Positions 2,166-13,266 of a stretch of DNA of 38,195 nt are shown piece after piece. Position 1 is the stretch's first letter. Each line of letters begins with the position of its first letter. The position numbers were made by a program, and so were the translations under genes. The DNA comes from Sulfuricurvum sp. (GTDB lineage: Bacteria; Campylobacterota; Campylobacteria; Campylobacterales; Sulfurimonadaceae): the NCBI GenBank assembly GCA_020721585.1, contig DYMK01000015.1, positions 1-38,195 on the forward strand, in the 5' to 3' direction. The notes under the pieces are model-generated. The model worked only from the letters and a program-made list of their open reading frames with translations, was not told where the DNA came from and did no database searches.

Positions 2166-2870
2166 TCATGAAATTTTCTCTCTGTCGAGAATCCGATACT
2201 CCCCCTCTTTTAAATCCCCCAGTGTCAAATCCCCGAAGCTACAGCGGTGCAGTGCAGTGACATGATTGCCTACCGCCGCGAACATCCGCCGTACTTGATG
2301 ATAACGTCCCTCAGTAATCTCCAGTGTCACGTGTGTCTCATCGATAATGGTAAGTTTGGCGGGGAGGCAAGGGGTTTTTTCGCCATTGAGCATCAATGTC
2401 CCCGAAGCGAAAATTTCTGCTTCATTCCCGTTTAACGCTCTATCCAATGTCGCTTCGTAGATTTTAGCAACATGGTGGCGCGGGGAGGTGAGGCGGTGGA
2501 GGAGTGTTCCATCATCGGTGAGGAGTAGTAATCCGCTTGTCTCTTTGTCGAGTCGTCCTACGGTAGAGATTTTAGGATCGCGCACTCTCCATCGCGGCGG
2601 GAGGAGATCGTAGACGAGTTTTCCCTCGCCGTCGTCGTGGCTACAGATTAGACCTGTGGGCTTGTGCATCAATATCACCATCCCCTGTGACGGGTCGAGT
2701 GGCTCTCCCTCAAAATAGACTTCATCATGAGCGACTTTGGTATCACTTTTGAGGGGGAGATTTTCGGTGTGGGTAATGATCCCCTCTCGGAGCAGTGTTG
2801 CAACCTTTTTGCGAGAGCAATACCCCAATGAGGAGAGAAGTTTGTCGAGGCGGACTTTAGTGGGATTCAT
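2166..2870 (-). CDS. rsuA: 16S rRNA pseudouridine synthase, RsuA type
   Basis: Converts a uridine (U516 in E. coli) of 16S rRNA to pseudouridine. An N-terminal S4 RNA-binding domain (about 5-50, VRLDKLLSSLGYCSR) precedes the catalytic domain with GRLDKETSGLLLLTDDG (106-121; catalytic Asp108). The later SPRHH and EGRYHQVRRMFAAVGN segments match RsuA more closely than RluB/E/F. The 234-residue length is normal. Its ATG overlaps the stop of the TOPRIM gene in a TAATG arrangement, so translation may be coupled to the upstream accessory unit. No other Shine-Dalgarno is obvious. The exact target position is inferred from the family. Confidence 0.92.
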   Translation of the reverse strand: MNPTKVRLDKLLSSLGYCSRKKVATLLREGIITHTENLPLKSDTKVAHDEVYFEGEPLDPSQGMVILMHKPTGLICSHDDGEGKLVYDLLPPRWRVRDPKISTVGRLDKETSGLLLLTDDGTLLHRLTSPRHHVAKIYEATLDRALNGNEAEIFASGTLMLNGEKTPCLPAKLTIIDETHVTLEITEGRYHQVRRMFAAVGNHVTALHRCSFGDLTLGDLKEGEYRILDREKIS

Positions 2871-3397
2871 TAAAATAGGTTTATGAGTTTGCTTTTAAGG
2901 TCGTCGAAGTTAGGGTGGTTGAAGTCAAATTTTGGATAGGGGTATAAATCTCGATATAAATTTGCAATAGGTTTTTTGTTTGGTTTAACACTTTCTACTT
3001 CTAAACACGTTACTAAATTATCAAAATACTCATAACACGCTTTATCTCTGATGGTCTCAATCAAAAAATAGTCTAAATTCCGTTCAAAAATATAGACATC
3101 AGTAGGAATTTGCCAATTTAATGTTTGTTTGAGTGTTTCAAAACATTCATGAGATTTTTCCATTCCGCCACAGGTGTTATCATCATTTTCAAAGTCACAA
3201 TCAAAAATAAAAAGGATTTTTTTAATTTTTTGCGTTCTTATTTGTTCTCCAAGTGTTTTATAATGCTTGTTATTGGAATCAAGAAGCGCAGATTTTCCTC
3301 CCATTTGGATAATAGAGGGGTCTTTTATATCAAGATGATTTAAAAAAGAAGTAAAAAAGTTTTTATCATCATTGCCCTCAACAATGATTTTTACCAT
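2870..3397 (-). CDS. TOPRIM-fold (DUF3226-like) nuclease-type protein, partner of the AAA ATPase
   Basis: A 175-residue protein with TOPRIM landmarks: an N-terminal strand ending in Glu (IIVEGNDDK, E7) and an IFDCDFEND strand with two aspartates (D66, D68), preceded by hydrophobic ILFIF. These residues would bind metal for nucleic-acid cleavage. The length and the 'VEGNDDKNFF' opening fit the DUF3226 group rather than primase or topoisomerase. Its ATG overlaps the stop of the upstream ATPase by 7 nt, so the two proteins are made together. The gene is visibly richer in A+T than rsuA and the ABC-F gene, which suggests transfer. Its role (anti-phage or DNA repair) is inferred from analogous ATPase+TOPRIM pairs. 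Confidence 0.75.
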   Translation of the reverse strand: MVKIIVEGNDDKNFFTSFLNHLDIKDPSIIQMGGKSALLDSNNKHYKTLGEQIRTQKIKKILFIFDCDFENDDNTCGGMEKSHECFETLKQTLNWQIPTDVYIFERNLDYFLIETIRDKACYEYFDNLVTCLEVESVKPNKKPIANLYRDLYPYPKFDFNHPNFDDLKSKLINLF

Positions 3398-4347
3398 CCT
3401 CGTATCTCCTGATTTTGTTCTACCTCATTTCTAAATGCTTCAAAATCGTACACGATTGACATTAATTCATTGGCATCATTTCGCCCCAATTCAATAAAGG
3501 TTATGTCTTCATCCCCCAATTTCTTCGCCACTCGTGTGTATGATTCGATGCACTCTTTTGAGTGGGTAGTGGCAAAAACTTGAACATTTTGTTCTTTGGA
3601 AATGGTGAGGATAAGTTCCCAAAGGGTGTCTAAATGGGTGTAATGGATACCATTACCTATTTCATCAATGAACAAGTAACCATTTACACAAGCATACAAT
3701 GAACAAATAATTGAGATATAATGCTTTAATCCATCACCAAACTCATTTAAATCTTGATAATCTCCTTCAATTTTTTGACACTGAGGCTTATCTCCTCCAA
3801 TAATTTTAAATTTTAAAATATTTTTATCGAACTCATTAATATATTTATATAAAACTTCTTCTTTATCTTTAATCTGTACAGCTTCATACACAAGTTTTAA
3901 CTCATAATTTGTAAATCCAAAATTATCTATAAATTCAATATTATCAGCATATTTATAATCTTCTGAAAACTCATTCTTATTGATTTCAATACCATCAAAA
4001 AATTTATACGTTTTTTTTGCATCGATTGAAATAACTTTAAATTTTACAGTTTTAAGATTCGATTCTGATTCATAAAATTGAATTGTATCTAATACTTTTT
4101 TTACACTTGGTTCTTTATTATTAACATATTCCAAATAGTTTCTACTATGCGTACAAGCATAAAGAGCATAAGTTAAATGCTCAATACTTTCTGAATGAAC
4201 ATTGACATAAACAGCTTCCATAAATGCCGTTTTACCAACATTATTTTTACCACCGATGAGGTTGACTCTCCCAAATCCTTCAGCTTTAAAATTTTGAAAA
4301 CATTTAAAATTTTTAATCTCTATATTTTTAATAAAATGGTCATTCAT
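3391..4347 (-). CDS. AAA (ABC/RecF-like) ATPase, OLD/AbiEii-like
   Basis: A 318-residue ATPase of the AAA_15/AAA_21 type. It starts with the typical 'IKNIEIKNFKCFQNF' strand. Walker A is GKNNVGKT (33-40), an ABC-like signature lies around NEFGDGLKHY (201-210), Walker B is YLFIDEIGNG (224-233), and the switch histidine is in ATTHSKE (about 262). There is no long coiled coil, unlike SMC/RecN. A strong GGGAGGG Shine-Dalgarno precedes the ATG. It heads a two-gene unit with the TOPRIM gene. The composition is AT-rich relative to the flanks. Such ATPases act as sensors in OLD, PARIS and related systems; the present combination is only analogous to those. Confidence 0.85.
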   Translation of the reverse strand: MNDHFIKNIEIKNFKCFQNFKAEGFGRVNLIGGKNNVGKTAFMEAVYVNVHSESIEHLTYALYACTHSRNYLEYVNNKEPSVKKVLDTIQFYESESNLKTVKFKVISIDAKKTYKFFDGIEINKNEFSEDYKYADNIEFIDNFGFTNYELKLVYEAVQIKDKEEVLYKYINEFDKNILKFKIIGGDKPQCQKIEGDYQDLNEFGDGLKHYISIICSLYACVNGYLFIDEIGNGIHYTHLDTLWELILTISKEQNVQVFATTHSKECIESYTRVAKKLGDEDITFIELGRNDANELMSIVYDFEAFRNEVEQNQEIRGW

Positions 4348-8320: not shown

Positions 8321-8596
8321 ATGGCTTTAGATACGGCTAAAAAAATGGAAATTATCAAAGCGTTCCAACGAACCGAAGGTGACACAGGATCAAGCGAAGT
8401 ACAAATCGCGTTGTTGTCAAAACGTATTAGTGACTTAACAGAACACCTTAAAGTGTTCAAAAAAGACCACTCTTCACGTCTTGGTTTGTTGAAATTGGTA
8501 GGTCAACGTCGTCGTTTGATGCGTTATTTGAAACGTACCAACCGCACAAGCTACAACACGTTGATCGCTGAACTTGCTATCCGCGACAATATCTAA
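8321..8596 (+). CDS. rpsO: 30S ribosomal protein S15
   Basis: A 91-residue protein, close to the normal 89-residue length, that binds the central domain of 16S rRNA early in small-subunit assembly. Typical S15 segments are [16 protein letters not shown] (about 21-36), [15 protein letters not shown] with the rRNA-binding His/Asp/Ser cluster, and [12 protein letters not shown] perfect AGGAGG stands seven bases before the ATG. The ~54-nt leader after the predicted start site could hold an autoregulatory fold, but I cannot show one. A good terminator follows, so it is a single-gene unit here. Confidence 0.98.
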
Positions 8597-8607
8597 ATTT
8601 CCCTCTT

Positions 8608-8633
8608 ATCCCTTCCTCCGAGGGGATTTTTCT
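8608..8633 (+). terminator. Rho-independent terminator of rpsO
   Basis: ATCCCTTC-CTCC-GAGGGGAT forms an 8-bp stem (one T-G pair) with a 4-nt loop, immediately followed by TTTTTCTT. It begins 11 bases after the rpsO stop. Confidence 0.85.
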
Positions 8634-8687
8634 TGTGTATCTCCCTTAATCTTACCCATTACTTCTTCTTTAACGTTAAATTAGGCA

Positions 8688-8705
8688 TAATAATCCAAAT
8701 TATTA
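8688..8705. promoter_or_regulatory. Perfect inverted repeat overlapping the promoter of the NifX-like gene
   Basis: TAATAAT-CCAA-ATTATTA is a perfect 7-bp inverted repeat. It overlaps the likely -10 CATAAT (8686-8691) and ends directly before the AGGAG Shine-Dalgarno. Its position suits an operator or a weak RNA hairpin at the transcript start. As it is pure A/T in its arms, chance is possible. Confidence 0.4.
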
Positions 8706-8717
8706 GGAGAAACTATT

Positions 8718-9116
8718 ATGAAAATTGCTGTACCCGTCGTCGATGACACCCTTAAAATGGCAGGAAATGCGGGGCATACCCCCTATTTTGCGGTCTTTAC
8801 CCTCACCGGTGGGATGTTTAAAAGTTTTATTTTAGAGGGTGTACGCCCCAATCCCAAAGTGGCGAATGACGATCATCACCACCATGACCACGATGATCAC
8901 CACACCTGTGACCATGATGAGGGGGACATCGAACACATCAAAGCGCACGATACGATGGCGCAAGCGATTCACGATTGTAACTATCTGGTGGTCAAAATGG
9001 CGTGTAAAAACACCGCCAAAAGTATGAGCCAAGTAGGGATTAAACTCAAAAAATACAACGGAACCCACTCTAACGCCCAAGAAATTCTCAAAGAGCTTTC
9101 CGCGCAGTTTGTTTAA
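8718..9116 (+). CDS. NifX/NifB-C-terminal-like protein with a His-rich metal-binding insert
   Basis: A 132-residue protein of the dinitrogenase iron-molybdenum cofactor-binding (Nitro_FeMo-Co) fold. It begins MKIAVPVVDD, has GHTPYFAVF (19-27), and ends with 'MACKNTAKSM...GIKLKKYNG', where family members bind clusters or metals. Between the two halves (about residues 51-68) lies an unusual run of His and Asp with one Cys, able to bind Ni, Co or Zn. No nitrogenase genes are nearby, so a general metal or cluster carrier role is more likely than FeMo-co synthesis. It is preceded by AGGAG and followed by repeat debris. Confidence 0.8.
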   Translation: MKIAVPVVDDTLKMAGNAGHTPYFAVFTLTGGMFKSFILEGVRPNPKVANDDHHHHDHDDHHTCDHDEGDIEHIKAHDTMAQAIHDCNYLVVKMACKNTAKSMSQVGIKLKKYNGTHSNAQEILKELSAQFV

Positions 9117-9120
9117 ATCC

Positions 9121-9194
9121 GTCACCCTGAGCTTTTCCCCCGTCACCCTACCCAGCGCACCTCGTCACCCTGAGCTTGACTCAGGGTCTAAAAG
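9121..9194. repeat. Intergenic repeat cluster, copy 2 (one full and two truncated units)
   Basis: GTCACCCTGAGCTT at 9121-9134, GTCACCCT at 9142-9149, and a full unit GTCACCCTGAGC...TCAGGGTCTAAAAG from 9164. The full unit matches that at 217-246. The truncated head-to-tail copies suggest replication slippage or repeated insertion. Confidence 0.8.
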
Positions 9195-9200
9195 ACGTGC

Positions 9201-9800
9201 TTAATCCACCAACACAATCCCCATCGACTCAAGCAAAAACAATGCCTCGTAGCGGTTGAAGATTGCCCCCTTGAGATGGTTGGAGCGTACATCGATAGAG
9301 GTGTTGGAAGAGTCGGTGAAATTTGAGCCTTCGAGGTGGGTGTTACCGAACAGCGCTCCTTTAAAATCGCTCAAACTAAAGTCCGCTTTTTTAAAACTTC
9401 CATTGCGAAAATCAACCTCTTTAGCTCGGCACTCCCGCATCACCAACCCTTCCAAATTCAAACCAAAAAAATTGCTGTCATTAAGAATACACTCGTGAAA
9501 ACGTAAGGGATCGGCATTGAGCAAACTCTTCCAATCCGCCATCGTCCAATCGATCCCGATCATCTTGCACGAGACAAACTCGACATCGCTCATTTTGCTA
9601 CTGGTGAGTTTCATCAGGCTCAGATTGCAGTTTTCGAAATGGCATTCGGTAAATTTACAAGACGAAAAAAAGGTCTCGCTAAAATCACACGAGACGAATG
9701 TGCAGTCATCGAATTCAGCTTTGGTGATCTTTTTGCCGTGGAGATCGATACCCTCGAATTTTTCGGCGAATACGTCCATGTTGTCGGTGATAGGGGTCAT
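9201..9800 (-). CDS. Pentapeptide-repeat protein
   Basis: A 199-residue protein built of degenerate five-residue repeats with a central Phe/Leu and preceding small residue or Cys, for example CTFVSCDFSETFFSSCKF (about 33-50), ADFSLSDFKGALF and GSNFTDSS. Such repeats fold as a right-handed quadrilateral beta helix, as in Qnr and MfpA, some of which mimic DNA and protect gyrase. There are many cysteines in the first half and no signal peptide. The start is uncertain: ATG 9800 and an in-frame ATG at 9779 both lack a clear Shine-Dalgarno. The function cannot be told from the repeat alone. Confidence 0.85.
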   Translation of the reverse strand: MTPITDNMDVFAEKFEGIDLHGKKITKAEFDDCTFVSCDFSETFFSSCKFTECHFENCNLSLMKLTSSKMSDVEFVSCKMIGIDWTMADWKSLLNADPLRFHECILNDSNFFGLNLEGLVMRECRAKEVDFRNGSFKKADFSLSDFKGALFGNTHLEGSNFTDSSNTSIDVRSNHLKGAIFNRYEALFLLESMGIVLVD

Positions 9801-9825
9801 GTTAATGCCAATTTAAAACAAGAAT

Positions 9826-10515
9826 CTAATTATAACTTCGTATTTCCGTATCAAAATTCGGGAACGTATATATGCCATTAATTTGAAGCCAAAAACCACC
9901 TTGATATTCTCTGCCAAGTCCAACTCTTAGATAAATAGATTCTTGTCTTCTTATAAAATCATTTATTATTTTGGGAAAGTTGGCATCATTAAAATGTTTC
10001 ATAGCATAGTTATAAAAACCTAAATCGGTAATAGAGAGAAATGAAAATCTTTTTTCATCATTATCCAATAAATTTAGTCTGATTTTAGCTTCTTTGAATC
10101 CATCCTTTACAATCTCAATATTTCGTGTGTTAATCTTAAGTGTTATGATGGATTTTGTTGGTGCGAAATCTTTTGGAATCACTTTTCCTTTTTCTGGAAA
10201 ATCATAGCCAAAGCCTTCACCGATACTACCAACCAAATCGCTCTCTAGTAACTCTTGAAATTCAGCAGAGCCACATATGCGTACTCTGCTGAGCTTTGTA
10301 TAGCGGCAATCTTCTGAATGTGGGTTTTCTATTTTTTCTAGTTTTGTAAAATCGCCATTAATCACATTGCCTGGTAAAATATTTAACCTTTTACAATCAG
10401 CTACAGAAACATACGGCAAAGGTCTTATGCACTGATTTGTCGCCATATTTATGCCAGCAATACATACAATCTCAGGATTGCTGAATCTCGTTAAATCCGT
10501 AATAATAATTTCCAT
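9826..10515 (-). CDS. Dual-OB-domain-like protein, third gene of the DUF488 cassette
   Basis: A 229-residue protein with the N-terminal pattern 'IVCIAGINMATNQCIRPLP', the hallmark of proteins annotated as dual OB domain-containing (about residues 17-35). A second all-beta region follows (about 120-229), ending in 'LGREYQGGFWLQINGIY'. The start at 10515 is preferred because AAGGA lies five bases upstream, whereas ATG 10521 touches that Shine-Dalgarno. It is 3-9 bp downstream of the second DUF488 gene and clearly in the same operon. AT-rich. OB folds suggest nucleic-acid binding, but this is inference. Confidence 0.65.
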   Translation of the reverse strand: MEIIITDLTRFSNPEIVCIAGINMATNQCIRPLPYVSVADCKRLNILPGNVINGDFTKLEKIENPHSEDCRYTKLSRVRICGSAEFQELLESDLVGSIGEGFGYDFPEKGKVIPKDFAPTKSIITLKINTRNIEIVKDGFKEAKIRLNLLDNDEKRFSFLSITDLGFYNYAMKHFNDANFPKIINDFIRRQESIYLRVGLGREYQGGFWLQINGIYTFPNFDTEIRSYN

Positions 10516-10524
10516 GCTCATCCT

Positions 10525-10959
10525 TTATAAGTGCTTAATATTTACGTTGTCAAAATGCTTAGCAATATATTCTGCTGCTAATCTCCGATGACATTGTTTA
10601 GCTGTTGGTTCACTGCACAATAAAACTGCATTTTCAAATTCTAAAATAGATATTTTTTTCAAAATATCTCTATTCGCTAAAATTTGGTTGTATTGTTTCT
10701 CATACTCTTGCCAATCAATTACTTTATTTTGATACCCATTCAACAGCTCTTTTGTCGGAGCAAATTCTGTTTTATACTCATAGGCAATATTATGAATTTT
10801 TAATAAATAGGGCAAATGCTTTGCATTTGCAAAACCTGCAAGTTGCGATTGATTATTTAATCTTATATCAATTAATTTTTTTACGCCATTTTGAGTCAAT
10901 GAGGTAAAAAACTCTTCTGCACTTTTTTGAGTATACCCGATAGTAAACAGATTCATCAT
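10525..10959 (-). CDS. DUF488 family protein (second copy)
   Basis: A 144-residue DUF488 protein. It has the N-terminal 'LFTIGYTQKSAEEFF', the 'KLIDIR' strand followed by a loop (about 28-33), and the C-terminal LLCSEPTAKQCHRRL (about 113-127), the conserved Cys...CHR signature of the family. Its ATG overlaps the stop of the first DUF488 gene by 4 nt (ATGA). At 144 residues it is shorter than the upstream copy and the sequences differ widely, so the pair is probably not a recent duplication. The biochemical activity of the family is unknown to me. Confidence 0.85.
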   Translation of the reverse strand: MMNLFTIGYTQKSAEEFFTSLTQNGVKKLIDIRLNNQSQLAGFANAKHLPYLLKIHNIAYEYKTEFAPTKELLNGYQNKVIDWQEYEKQYNQILANRDILKKISILEFENAVLLCSEPTAKQCHRRLAAEYIAKHFDNVNIKHL

Positions 10960-11579
10960 TCATCCCCTTCTTTTGTTATTGCATTATAGGCAATGTCAAT
11001 ATTTCTTAATTCATATGCCAAATTTAATTGCTCTTCAATACGAATATCTGGATTAAATAAATCTACTGCTGGAATTTTTTTCTCATATTTTTTTAATAAT
11101 TTTTCTTCAAGCTCTTTATGCTGCACAATTTTATCGGGATAAATATGATTTACATTTATTGATATTTTTGATAAAAACTCCGAAATCAATCCAAATCTAT
11201 GACAATCAAATGCCTCTTTTTCAGAGCACATCAAAGAAATGTTATATCCCTTCTCAATACCCCTTTCTAATCTCACAATACCATCTTGAAAATTTTTGGT
11301 TTCTTGCACTTTTTTAAAATTTACTTTTCCATTATCAAAAAGAAGACCTTTATCTTCGTATCTTGCACCAAGAGTATCCCCCATAAAAATATAACAGATT
11401 GCATTTTGCTTCAAATATTGTTTCAATAATTCTTTGTTATATTGTGGTGCAAATTTACTGTATGGAGTACTTCGGACATCTACAATCGTATTGATATTAT
11501 TATTTTGTAATAATTTTATAAAATCTTCAATTTCATATATTGAATGACCGACTGTATACAACTCTTTCAATAAATGCAC
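10956..11579 (-). CDS. DUF488 family protein (first copy)
   Basis: A 207-residue DUF488 protein with 'LYTVGHSIYEIEDFI' near the start, 'IVDVRSTPYSKF' (about 33-44) and LMCSEKEAFDCHRFGL (about 115-130), the family's Cys/CHR signature. It opens the three-gene cassette. The frame begins with GTG at 11579; a TTG at 11570 has a better-placed AAGGTG and may be the true start. The gene is rich in A+T, as are its two partners, in contrast to the flanking pentapeptide and kdsB genes. This suggests a transferred cassette. Confidence 0.85.
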   Translation of the reverse strand: MHLLKELYTVGHSIYEIEDFIKLLQNNNINTIVDVRSTPYSKFAPQYNKELLKQYLKQNAICYIFMGDTLGARYEDKGLLFDNGKVNFKKVQETKNFQDGIVRLERGIEKGYNISLMCSEKEAFDCHRFGLISEFLSKISINVNHIYPDKIVQHKELEEKLLKKYEKKIPAVDLFNPDIRIEEQLNLAYELRNIDIAYNAITKEGDE

Positions 11580-11686
11580 CTTCTACTTTTTCGTATAAAT
11601 AACTTCAAATCTTACTTCCTATATACTAAAGAAGAGTTGAGTAATTTCCCTCTTCAACGCCTTATTTTTTACCTGATCATAAATCA

Positions 11687-11710
11687 CACCCTTCGACAAG
11701 CTCAGGGCGA
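11687..11710. repeat. Isolated repeat unit (CACCCTTCGACAAGCTCAGGGCGA type)
   Basis: A CCCTTCGACAAGCTCAGGG palindromic unit related in style to the other GTCACCCTGA units of the window but with a different loop. It lies between the DUF488 cassette and the small antitoxin-like gene. Confidence 0.55.
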
Positions 11711-11721
11711 ATGGAAAAGAC

Positions 11722-11898
11722 TTAATCAACATATTGAGAAATCACCCGATCAAATCCTTCATCAATACTCATATATTCACCCCGCTCGATTTGCTCCATC
11801 GCCTCTTTAACTTCAGATTTGAGCTGTGCATGGGTACAGTTGTGTTTATCAGAAGAGATAACCGTAATACTCTTATCATTACTATTACACCCATCCAT
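11722..11898 (-). CDS. Small antitoxin-like protein (unpaired)
   Basis: A 58-residue protein starting at ATG 11898, chosen because AAGGA lies five bases upstream; a TTG at 11916 would be the only longer start. The C-terminal half, LKSEVKEAMEQIERGEYMSI, resembles the tail of ParD/RHH-type antitoxins ('...I.RGEY....'). The N-terminal part has few distinguishing residues. No toxin gene is adjacent on either side. It may be an orphan antitoxin or a remnant. Confidence 0.45.
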   Translation of the reverse strand: MDGCNSNDKSITVISSDKHNCTHAQLKSEVKEAMEQIERGEYMSIDEGFDRVISQYVD

Positions 11899-11938
11899 AG
11901 GATTCCTTACTAACAATTTTTTCTCATCATAGCAATTT

Positions 11939-12028
11939 TTGGAAGTGAGGCTTCAGCCTCGCATAGTTACTTTGTTGGAAGTTGCAGTGCTTACGAAACT
12001 TTTAGCGGGGCTAAAGCCCCACTTCCAA
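11939..12028. repeat. ~90-bp inverted-repeat (MITE-like) element
   Basis: The ends are inverted copies: TTGGAAGTGAGGC... at 11939 and ...GCCCCACTTCCAA at 12028. Each end also holds its own palindrome, GAGGCT-TC-AGCCTC on the left and GGGGCT-AA-AGCCCC on the right. The two palindromes differ at positions that keep pairing within each arm. The interior (about 11965-12003) has no ORF. The structure looks like a miniature transposable or REP-type element. Confidence 0.7.
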
Positions 12029-12156
12029 TGAAGTGCGTAACATCAGTTATTTATATATCCCTTCATACTCTTTCGTAACTTTTGAGGTGATTTCACCGTC
12101 TGGCATTTGGAAATAGGGAACTCCGTCGCGACTGTAGCCATTCGAGTGCACTCGTT

Positions 12157-12483
12157 TTATTTGGCATAGAGTATTTTTCCGTTTTGCAGAATATCTACTC
12201 GGTAAAAATGGTCATCCCTGCTTTGGAGGAAATTATTGCTTGCCGCCAAAACATCAAATCCAATCTCATGTTTAAAAATCAAATCACGCAACTGTTTTCG
12301 TGCAGCCAACCGATACTCACGGGCATGAGAGGGATCGATGTCTTTGACTAAAAAGAGGTCAATGTCACTCTCTTTAGTCGGAGTTCCGTAGGCGTACGAT
12401 CCAAAGAGGATAATTTTATCAGGATCGAGAGGTTTTAGACGTTCGATGATTTCATCTTTTAATGTGTCCATGTTGAGAATCAC
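12157..12483 (-). CDS. MNT-type nucleotidyltransferase domain protein
   Basis: A 108-residue minimal nucleotidyltransferase. The signature GSYAYGTPTKESDIDLFLV (about 28-46) has the GS motif and the paired aspartates (SDIDL) for metal and NTP binding. A further acidic residue lies in 'IGFDVLAA'. The GTG start at 12483 is preferred because AGGAGGG is five bases upstream and a minus-strand TATAAT (12515-12510) would start RNA at about 12503. ATG 12471 is possible. Related MntA antitoxins AMPylate HEPN toxins, but no HEPN gene follows. Only ~100 bp of unrecognised sequence lie before the hairpin element. Confidence 0.8.
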   Translation of the reverse strand: MILNMDTLKDEIIERLKPLDPDKIILFGSYAYGTPTKESDIDLFLVKDIDPSHAREYRLAARKQLRDLIFKHEIGFDVLAASNNFLQSRDDHFYRVDILQNGKILYAK

Positions 12484-12509
12484 TAATCCCTCCTCTCGCA
12501 AAGTGTTAA

Positions 12510-12515
12510 ATTATA
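12510..12515 (-). promoter_or_regulatory. -10 box for the nucleotidyltransferase gene
   Basis: TATAAT on the minus strand, about 27 bp before the favoured GTG start. It argues against the longer TTG start at 12501, which would lie at the transcript start. Confidence 0.45.
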
Positions 12516-12546
12516 CTCCAAAATCAATAAATTTTTAGGTGTTACA

Positions 12547-13266
12547 TCACACCCCAAAAATCTTTTTCGCCCGTTCCAAATCCTCTAGCGTGTCGATCCC
12601 AAACCCGCTGCTGGCGACCTTGACCATCGAGATTTTTTTGCCGTGATACAAGGCGCGGAGCTGTTCGAGCTTTTCGATGTCTTCAAGCGGTGCTTCGCCG
12701 AGGGCACAAAAGTCATGAAGTGATTTTTTGGTAAATCCATAAATCCCAATATGACCAAAATAGTTCGCCTCACCGCTACGGTTAAAGGGGATGGGGGAGC
12801 GGGAAAAATAGATCGCATTGTGATTGGCATCGGTGATCACTTTGACCAAATTGGGGTCTTGCGCCGATTCGGTATTGATCGCGTTGTAACAGCTTGCCAT
12901 GATGAAGGGGGCGTTTTGCGCTTTGAGGGCGGTGAGTCGTTCAATGAGCAATTCAAGAACTTCGGTCTCGATAAATGGCTCATCGGCTTGGACGTTGATA
13001 ATCAGCTCATCATCGGCACTATCGAGCAATTGGGCACACTCGTTGATACGGTCGGTACCACTTTTGTGGGTGGTGGAGGTCAGACGCGCTTCAATGCCGT
13101 GTGCAGCACAAATATCAAGTATCTTCTCATCATCGCACGCGACCACGACACGGTCGATAGATGCGACCCGTTTGGCAGTACGGATGACCATGGGCAATCC
13201 ACCAATATCAGCGAGTACTTTTTGGGGGAAACGGGTGGAAGCAAGACGGGCAGGGATGATAATCAT
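12547..13266 (-). CDS. kdsB: 3-deoxy-manno-octulosonate cytidylyltransferase (CMP-Kdo synthetase)
   Basis: Activates Kdo with CTP to give CMP-Kdo for the lipopolysaccharide inner core, in the cytoplasm. The 239-residue protein begins IIIPARLASTRFPQKVL, the nucleotide-binding signature of the family. It also has VVVACDD (Asp pair, about 40-46), 'STTHKSGTDRINE' (about 64-76) and NVQADEPFIE (about 90-99), the metal and sugar-binding segment. The length is normal. It diverges from the TrmN6-like gene, with a 54-bp gap between the two starts. Certain as to family. Confidence 0.95.
   Translation of the reverse strand: MIIIPARLASTRFPQKVLADIGGLPMVIRTAKRVASIDRVVVACDDEKILDICAAHGIEARLTSTTHKSGTDRINECAQLLDSADDELIINVQADEPFIETEVLELLIERLTALKAQNAPFIMASCYNAINTESAQDPNLVKVITDANHNAIYFSRSPIPFNRSGEANYFGHIGIYGFTKKSLHDFCALGEAPLEDIEKLEQLRALYHGKKISMVKVASSGFGIDTLEDLERAKKIFGV

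Follow-up and report, generated by a model that had tools for sequence, protein, structure and literature searches.

Gene content and layout of the cassette

We analysed a 38,195-nt stretch of Sulfuricurvum sp. DNA (hereafter, the window), in which three adjacent minus-strand open reading frames at positions 9826–11579 encode two DUF488 proteins, B and C, and one DuOB protein, A (Table 1). This arrangement had been described in a first-pass annotation of the sequence and was confirmed, including the 4-nt overlap of B and C (10956–10959) and the short gap between C and the DuOB gene, which measures 3 nt from the annotated ATG and 9 nt from a second ATG at 10515. The second ATG is the likelier start, because relatives and the ribosome-binding site AAAGG point there; the DuOB protein has 229 aa from this codon and 231 aa from ATG 10521. 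B probably starts at TTG 11570 rather than GTG 11579, because the former agrees with a 204-aa relative from a Sulfurimonas MAG (L014) and the latter overlaps the ribosome-binding site AGAAGG. The G+C content of the cassette is 30.4% as compared to 44.2% for the window, of which it is the lowest 1.75-kb stretch, in line with the AT-rich setting noted before.

Both B (71.8 bits) and C (76.1 bits) matched PF04343 (DUF488) far above its curated cut-off of 22.2, and C also matched DUF488-N3a with 39.9 bits. The DuOB protein scored 36.7 bits against PF22557 (cut-off 27) and covered positions 6–210 of the 210 in this profile. With the PADLOC profiles, B and C were recognized as the mutually adjacent PDC-M45B (E 1e-56) and PDC-M45C (E 1e-53), and the DuOB protein of the window had no match to PDC-M45A at E 0.1.

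Table 1 Features of the cassette and its surroundings in the window
Feature	Position	Strand	Description
DUF488 gene B (PDC-M45B type)	10956..11579	minus	Predicted Cys-dependent rhodanese/phosphatase-like enzyme; 207 aa from GTG 11579, 204 aa from TTG 11570
DUF488 gene C (PDC-M45C / DUF488-N3a type)	10525..10959	minus	Predicted second Cys-dependent enzyme, 144 aa
DuOB gene A, divergent class (class 2)	9826..10521	minus	Predicted ssDNA/DNA-end binding tandem OB protein
Pentapeptide-repeat gene	9201-9800		Beside the cassette
Antitoxin-like (RelB-like) ORF	11722-11916		Sub-threshold match, 19 bits (cut-off 60)
Imperfect hairpin	about 11939-12026		Folds better than shuffles (z -3.65)
Nucleotidyltransferase-domain gene	12157-12501		MntA-antitoxin match below threshold, 31 bits (cut-off 60)

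The pentapeptide-repeat gene and the hairpin reported earlier are indeed present beside the cassette, and the antitoxin-like gene is represented by a sub-threshold match alone. The hairpin is an imperfect 24-bp inverted repeat with the palindromic core GGCTTYAGCCYCGC, resembles a REP-type or IS200-end palindrome, and has no second exact copy in this assembly. No HEPN partner was identified beside the nucleotidyltransferase-domain gene. All four elements were considered as possible parts of the system and rejected, as none was seen recurring beside related cassettes.

Conservation of the three-gene module across genomes

A scan with C across 84,980 species genomes recovered at least 556 relatives, and the 80 best loci were read; being those with the greatest similarity to C, they are a non-random sample. 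All three genes were present together in 72 of these 80 C-anchored loci (the best 80 of at least 556), in the orders B-C-A (n = 53), A-B-C (n = 16), A-B-C-A (n = 2), and B-A-C (n = 1). Eight loci were incomplete; three of them are truncated at the end of a contig (L022, L057, L092), and one carries a DuOB-B fusion (L059). An adjacent DuOB gene was absent in four of the 80 (L041, L055, L089, L091). From the opposite direction, a DuOB-anchored search was positive in 11 of 395 Bacteroidota genomes, and one or both DUF488 genes adjoin DuOB in nine of these 11. The other two (L204, L206) have weak DuOB matches of 31 and 23 bits without a DUF488 neighbour and are possibly DuOB relatives with another partner. 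DuOB was found in 26 of 28 cassette genomes, with nearly all of those DuOBs located inside the cassette, and the partner genes accompanied every plasmid DuOB that was read except that of pH205 (L179). In this plasmid, a DuOB remnant (132-2057) severed by ISEcp1 lies upstream of blaCMY-36 and the partner genes are gone; the cassette is therefore dispensable to pH205.

The co-occurrence of the three families, which the first-pass annotation had proposed as a check, was thus recovered from both the C and the DuOB anchors, and its frequency argues against rare co-occurrence or random neighbours. No constant fourth gene was found among 121 neighbour ORFs. DUF488-DUF488-DuOB is a real, fixed module in many bacterial phyla, and its range extends to at least one archaeal contig.

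Conserved residues and predicted fold of the DUF488 proteins

DUF488 has been assigned to the rhodanese-phosphatase superfamily. The Cys...CHR signature noted earlier in both copies corresponds to C118 and C126-H127-R128 in B and to C115 and C123-H124-R125 in C, and these residues are 99–100% conserved in 105 homologues of B and 131 homologues of C, respectively. Given this conservation, neither DUF488 copy looks inactive as judged from the alignments. Both copies carry C-x7-C-H-R (= C-x9-R) in place of the C-x5-R P-loop signature of protein tyrosine/dual-specificity phosphatases. A recent duplication of DUF488 was rejected as the origin of the pair, as B and C are only about 25–30% identical, each has its own orthologues, and their order is the same across phyla.

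The structure of B was predicted from the window's own sequence (pLDDT 95.3). In this model, C118 ends the core strand 114–118 and the next helix starts at residue 127, with R128 at its beginning, a placement of Cys and Arg that recalls the phosphatase P-loop apart from the x9 spacing. The best structural matches were the dual-specificity phosphatases KAP (Z 8.6), laforin (Z 7.9), and PRL-1 (Z 7.9); RNA 5'-phosphatases followed with Z 7.1 (RNGTT-like, 8p4c), Z 6.9 (baculovirus, 1yn9), and Z 6.5 (PIR1, 4mbb). Tetrapyrrole-methylase-like folds scored between these two groups of phosphatases, and one sulfurtransferase appeared low in the list. With regard to a rhodanese-phosphatase fold, i.e., a Rossmannoid domain whose catalytic Cys terminates a core strand, the matches to phosphatases (Z 7.9–8.6) and methylase folds have borderline scores. 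RapZ was absent among the structural matches listed for B, which is still compatible with kinship. A sequence search of the PDB gave zero matches for B, C, and DuOB.

The superfamily assignment and the two conserved cysteines per enzyme, which suit a sulfur relay, also allow for a rhodanese-type sulfur transfer, in which the DUF488 pair would thiolate nucleic acid bases or backbone as a new sulfur-based modification. We regard this as very improbable, considering that phosphatases and tetrapyrrole methylase-like domains head the structural matches, a single sulfurtransferase being listed low down, and that the cassette was not seen together with a cysteine desulfurase or with an adenylating or Dnd/Ssp partner.

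Predicted fold and exchange of the DuOB protein

The DuOB protein of the window is predicted to adopt a tandem OB fold (pLDDT 95.7), and its best PDB matches were RPA70 (1jmc; Z 6.0 over 165 residues) and the Oxytricha telomere end-binding protein (Z 5.5), accompanied by Teb1 and HIN domains. The model agrees with the earlier description of a dual-OB-like gene and resembles ssDNA-binding proteins; DuOB would most likely recognize single-stranded DNA or a DNA end. Cys20 and Arg33 are invariant in DuOB; they would be superfluous for a plain ssDNA binder and count against a simple ssDNA-binding reading. The Z scores of DuOB (6.0) and DUF488-B (8.6) are modest, and fold assignments alone therefore carry no function. 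The previously proposed pairing of a Cys-dependent domain with a nucleic-acid-binding fold accordingly stands for the retained Cys and CHR residues and the tandem OB model, with catalysis and binding being predictions from sequence and models.

Compared to its nearest B+C relative, the Sulfurimonas MAG, the window has identities of 76% for B, 70% for C, and 16% for DuOB. At the 3' end of C, the DNA identity of the two drops to the background level. The DuOB of the window is instead 37–49% identical to DuOBs from Desulfobacterota, one cyanobacterium, and viral contigs. These divergent proteins constitute class 2, which was delimited by clustering of the DuOBs prior to construction of the B+C tree. 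The nine class-2 DuOBs group together as a single clade of the DuOB tree (SH-aLRT 99), yet their cassettes are scattered on the B+C tree, where monophyly of the six B-bearing ones was rejected (AU p 3e-5); this incongruence indicates that DuOB has been exchanged between cassettes. DuOB is the first gene in the other class-2 cassettes and the last gene in the window, i.e., it follows the B-C-A order usual in its own lineage, and the simplest reading of these sequence comparisons would be that DuOB was replaced in the window's lineage. With the PADLOC profiles, canonical DuOBs match PDC-M45A, whereas the class-2 DuOBs of L016, L100, and L123 do not. Conservation in the alignment of class-1 DuOBs was insufficient for pattern scanning.

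Gene fusions and the mSLOG-DUF4326 variant

DuOB is fused to RecQ-HRDC-HTH_40 in two loci (L045, L072), to PIF1-HTH_40 in another (L026), and to a Gp157-like region in a fourth (L039). The fusion of DuOB and B in L059 is a true one, and B is fused to C in L122; a fused B in L074 was rejected, as it merely reflects an over-long ORF start. In a Calothrix genome, a DuOB-WD40 fusion (L019:8241-9935) is located about 1.8 kb from the B-C pair, and a second DuOB is present elsewhere in the genome.

On viral contigs and small plasmids, the gene order is DuOB, DUF488-C, and a mSLOG-DUF4326 fusion that replaces B. Among 115 loci, 85 have B without mSLOG-DUF4326, 23 have mSLOG-DUF4326 without B, and none has both; the 23 loci with the fusion in B's place are on viral contigs, and several plasmids show the same replacement. 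The Klebsiella plasmid CP052514.1 (L178; 4167 bp) carries a complete DuOB, DUF488-C, mSLOG-DUF4326 cassette of 1.66 kb at 2370-4028 and is probably the smallest natural carrier among those seen.

The SLOG domain of this prophage variant points to a nucleotide or ADP-ribose ligand and counts against the reading favoured below. The system might accordingly sense or remove a diffusible NAD+/ADP-ribose-like or nucleotide infection signal, with the DUF488 proteins trimming terminal ribose phosphates and DuOB merely coupling the system to DNA. The mutually exclusive use of mSLOG-DUF4326 and B would fit such a role, as would the binding of NAD+/ADPr-type ligands by SLOG domains and the proposal that DUF4326 processes terminal phosphates on the ribose of ADPr (PMC9503650). 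We nevertheless consider it rather unlikely, given that B of the window has no SLOG domain, that DuOB is the constant partner and is fused to RecQ/PIF1 helicases and to B, not to Macro or NADAR, and that no ARG, Macro, or NADAR genes were seen beside the cassettes read.

Mobility and genomic surroundings

Of 100 relatives, three carry DuOB, and it was missing from all 40 genomes of the same genus. In the window, rpsO and kdsB are 3.95 kb apart (8596–12547) as compared to about 0.1–3 kb in same-genus genomes, and the cassette is absent from this interval in those with both flanking genes readable. The interval has the appearance of a site with variable cargo, and only some same-genus genomes share a nifX-like gene located within it. 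Copies of the cassette are found on prophages and plasmids, and the alignment of C identified 35 viral-contig loci; a single-protein search of viral contigs with B gave zero matches. The G+C content of 30% versus 44%, the lack of the cassette in same-genus genomes, their empty rpsO-kdsB intervals, and the prophage and plasmid copies together show that the cassette is horizontally acquired and mobile.

Such carriers raise the question of whether these are counter-defence or superinfection-exclusion genes of prophages and plasmids, a role for which the 35 viral-contig loci and the Klebsiella plasmid of only 4.2 kb, 1.66 kb of it cassette, could be cited. Most B-bearing copies are chromosomal and spread over many phyla, and essentially none occur in lytic phage genomes, which makes this explanation quite improbable.

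Cassettes on plasmids adjoin type III CRISPR (L007, L010), CBASS (L008), and NotI restriction-modification (L177) genes. Co-occurrence in defence islands had been proposed as a check, and matches to defence profiles are indeed more numerous around the cassettes than in matched distal regions: at E 1e-8, 165 PADLOC families were matched from 121 neighbour ORFs versus 40 from 121 distal ORFs. This family count is a rough proxy, as a single protein can match many profiles; the distal control comprises a subset of the same genomes, and most of its 40 families are kinase profiles hit by three proteins. Many cassette loci have no nearby defence gene.

The neighbour ORFs also include matches to an RtcR-type CARF regulator and to RtcB, which, along with the RecQ/PIF1 fusions and the RPA/telomere-like OB folds predicted for DuOB, would suit a cassette for DNA/RNA repair or end healing that serves the host or plasmid without attacking invaders. 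The patchy horizontal spread, the enrichment of defence profiles nearby, and the exchange of DuOB are untypical of housekeeping repair, and we deem this reading unlikely.

Putative mechanism and significance

The reading that we favour, and whose chances we see as evenly balanced, is a mobile PDC-M45-type system that takes part in conflicts with phages or plasmids and whose DuOB protein positions two Cys-dependent phosphotransferases of the DUF488 type at ssDNA or DNA ends. We infer the ssDNA or end binding, the chemistry, its substrate, and the role in phage/plasmid conflict. DuOB would recognize ssDNA or a DNA end, e.g., on unwound, replicating, or recombining invader DNA, and would bring both DUF488 enzymes to the bound site. 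Each enzyme could then use its thiolate Cys (C118 in B, C115 in C) and Arg (R128 and R125, respectively) for phospho-transfer on a nucleic-acid end or a nucleotide derivative, which may leave the end unusable or marked. B and C would probably perform successive steps.

A more speculative extension, which we put forward tentatively and hold to be doubtful, casts DuOB as the interchangeable recognition subunit of an immune system whose two enzymes modify DNA ends. Cassettes would trade DuOB classes, and also helicase fusions, much as restriction systems do with their specificity subunits, and the DUF488 pair, or DUF488 with SLOG-DUF4326, would provide a chemistry new to defence.

If active on DNA ends, the module would represent an enzyme class new to bacterial immunity. 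The 4.2-kb plasmid represents a minimal natural form that makes the module testable, and the natural swap of DuOB next to conserved enzymes isolates the recognition subunit. Class-2 DuOBs escape present defence-finding profiles.

Comparison with known systems

DuOB shares its predicted tandem OB fold with RPA70 and telomere end-binding proteins, but the identity is about 10% and the invariant Cys20 and Arg33 are DuOB's own. Similarly, the predicted DUF488-B resembles dual-specificity and RNA 5'-phosphatases (KAP, laforin, PRL, capping-enzyme triphosphatase) in having a Cys at a strand end and an Arg at the following helix, but differs from them in its C-x9-R motif with a second Cys-His, in place of C-x5-R, at about 10% identity. 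Burroughs and Aravind reportedly defined a RapZ-C-DUF488-DUF4326 clade in 2023 and predicted its members to form nucleic-acid-end-processing conflict systems. The Pfam families DUF488-N3a, DuOB, mSLOG, and DUF4326 of the systems of this clade match the cassettes described here. Their study is cited in PMC12419801.

The closest counterpart is the PADLOC candidate PDC-M45, which comprises M45A (DuOB), M45B (DUF488), and M45C (DUF488) and is the same three-gene operon as in the window. The DuOBs of relatives match M45A, whereas that of the window and other class-2 DuOBs do not. PDC systems are unvalidated candidates (PMC12988326), and two other PDC systems were inactive when assayed elsewhere (PMC12409345). 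PDC-M45 is not named in the literature searched. With PDC-M45 listed in PADLOC and the prediction attributed to Burroughs and Aravind, this kind of system has thus already been proposed; the class-2 DuOB, which PADLOC misses, and the exchange of DuOB between cassettes may be new.
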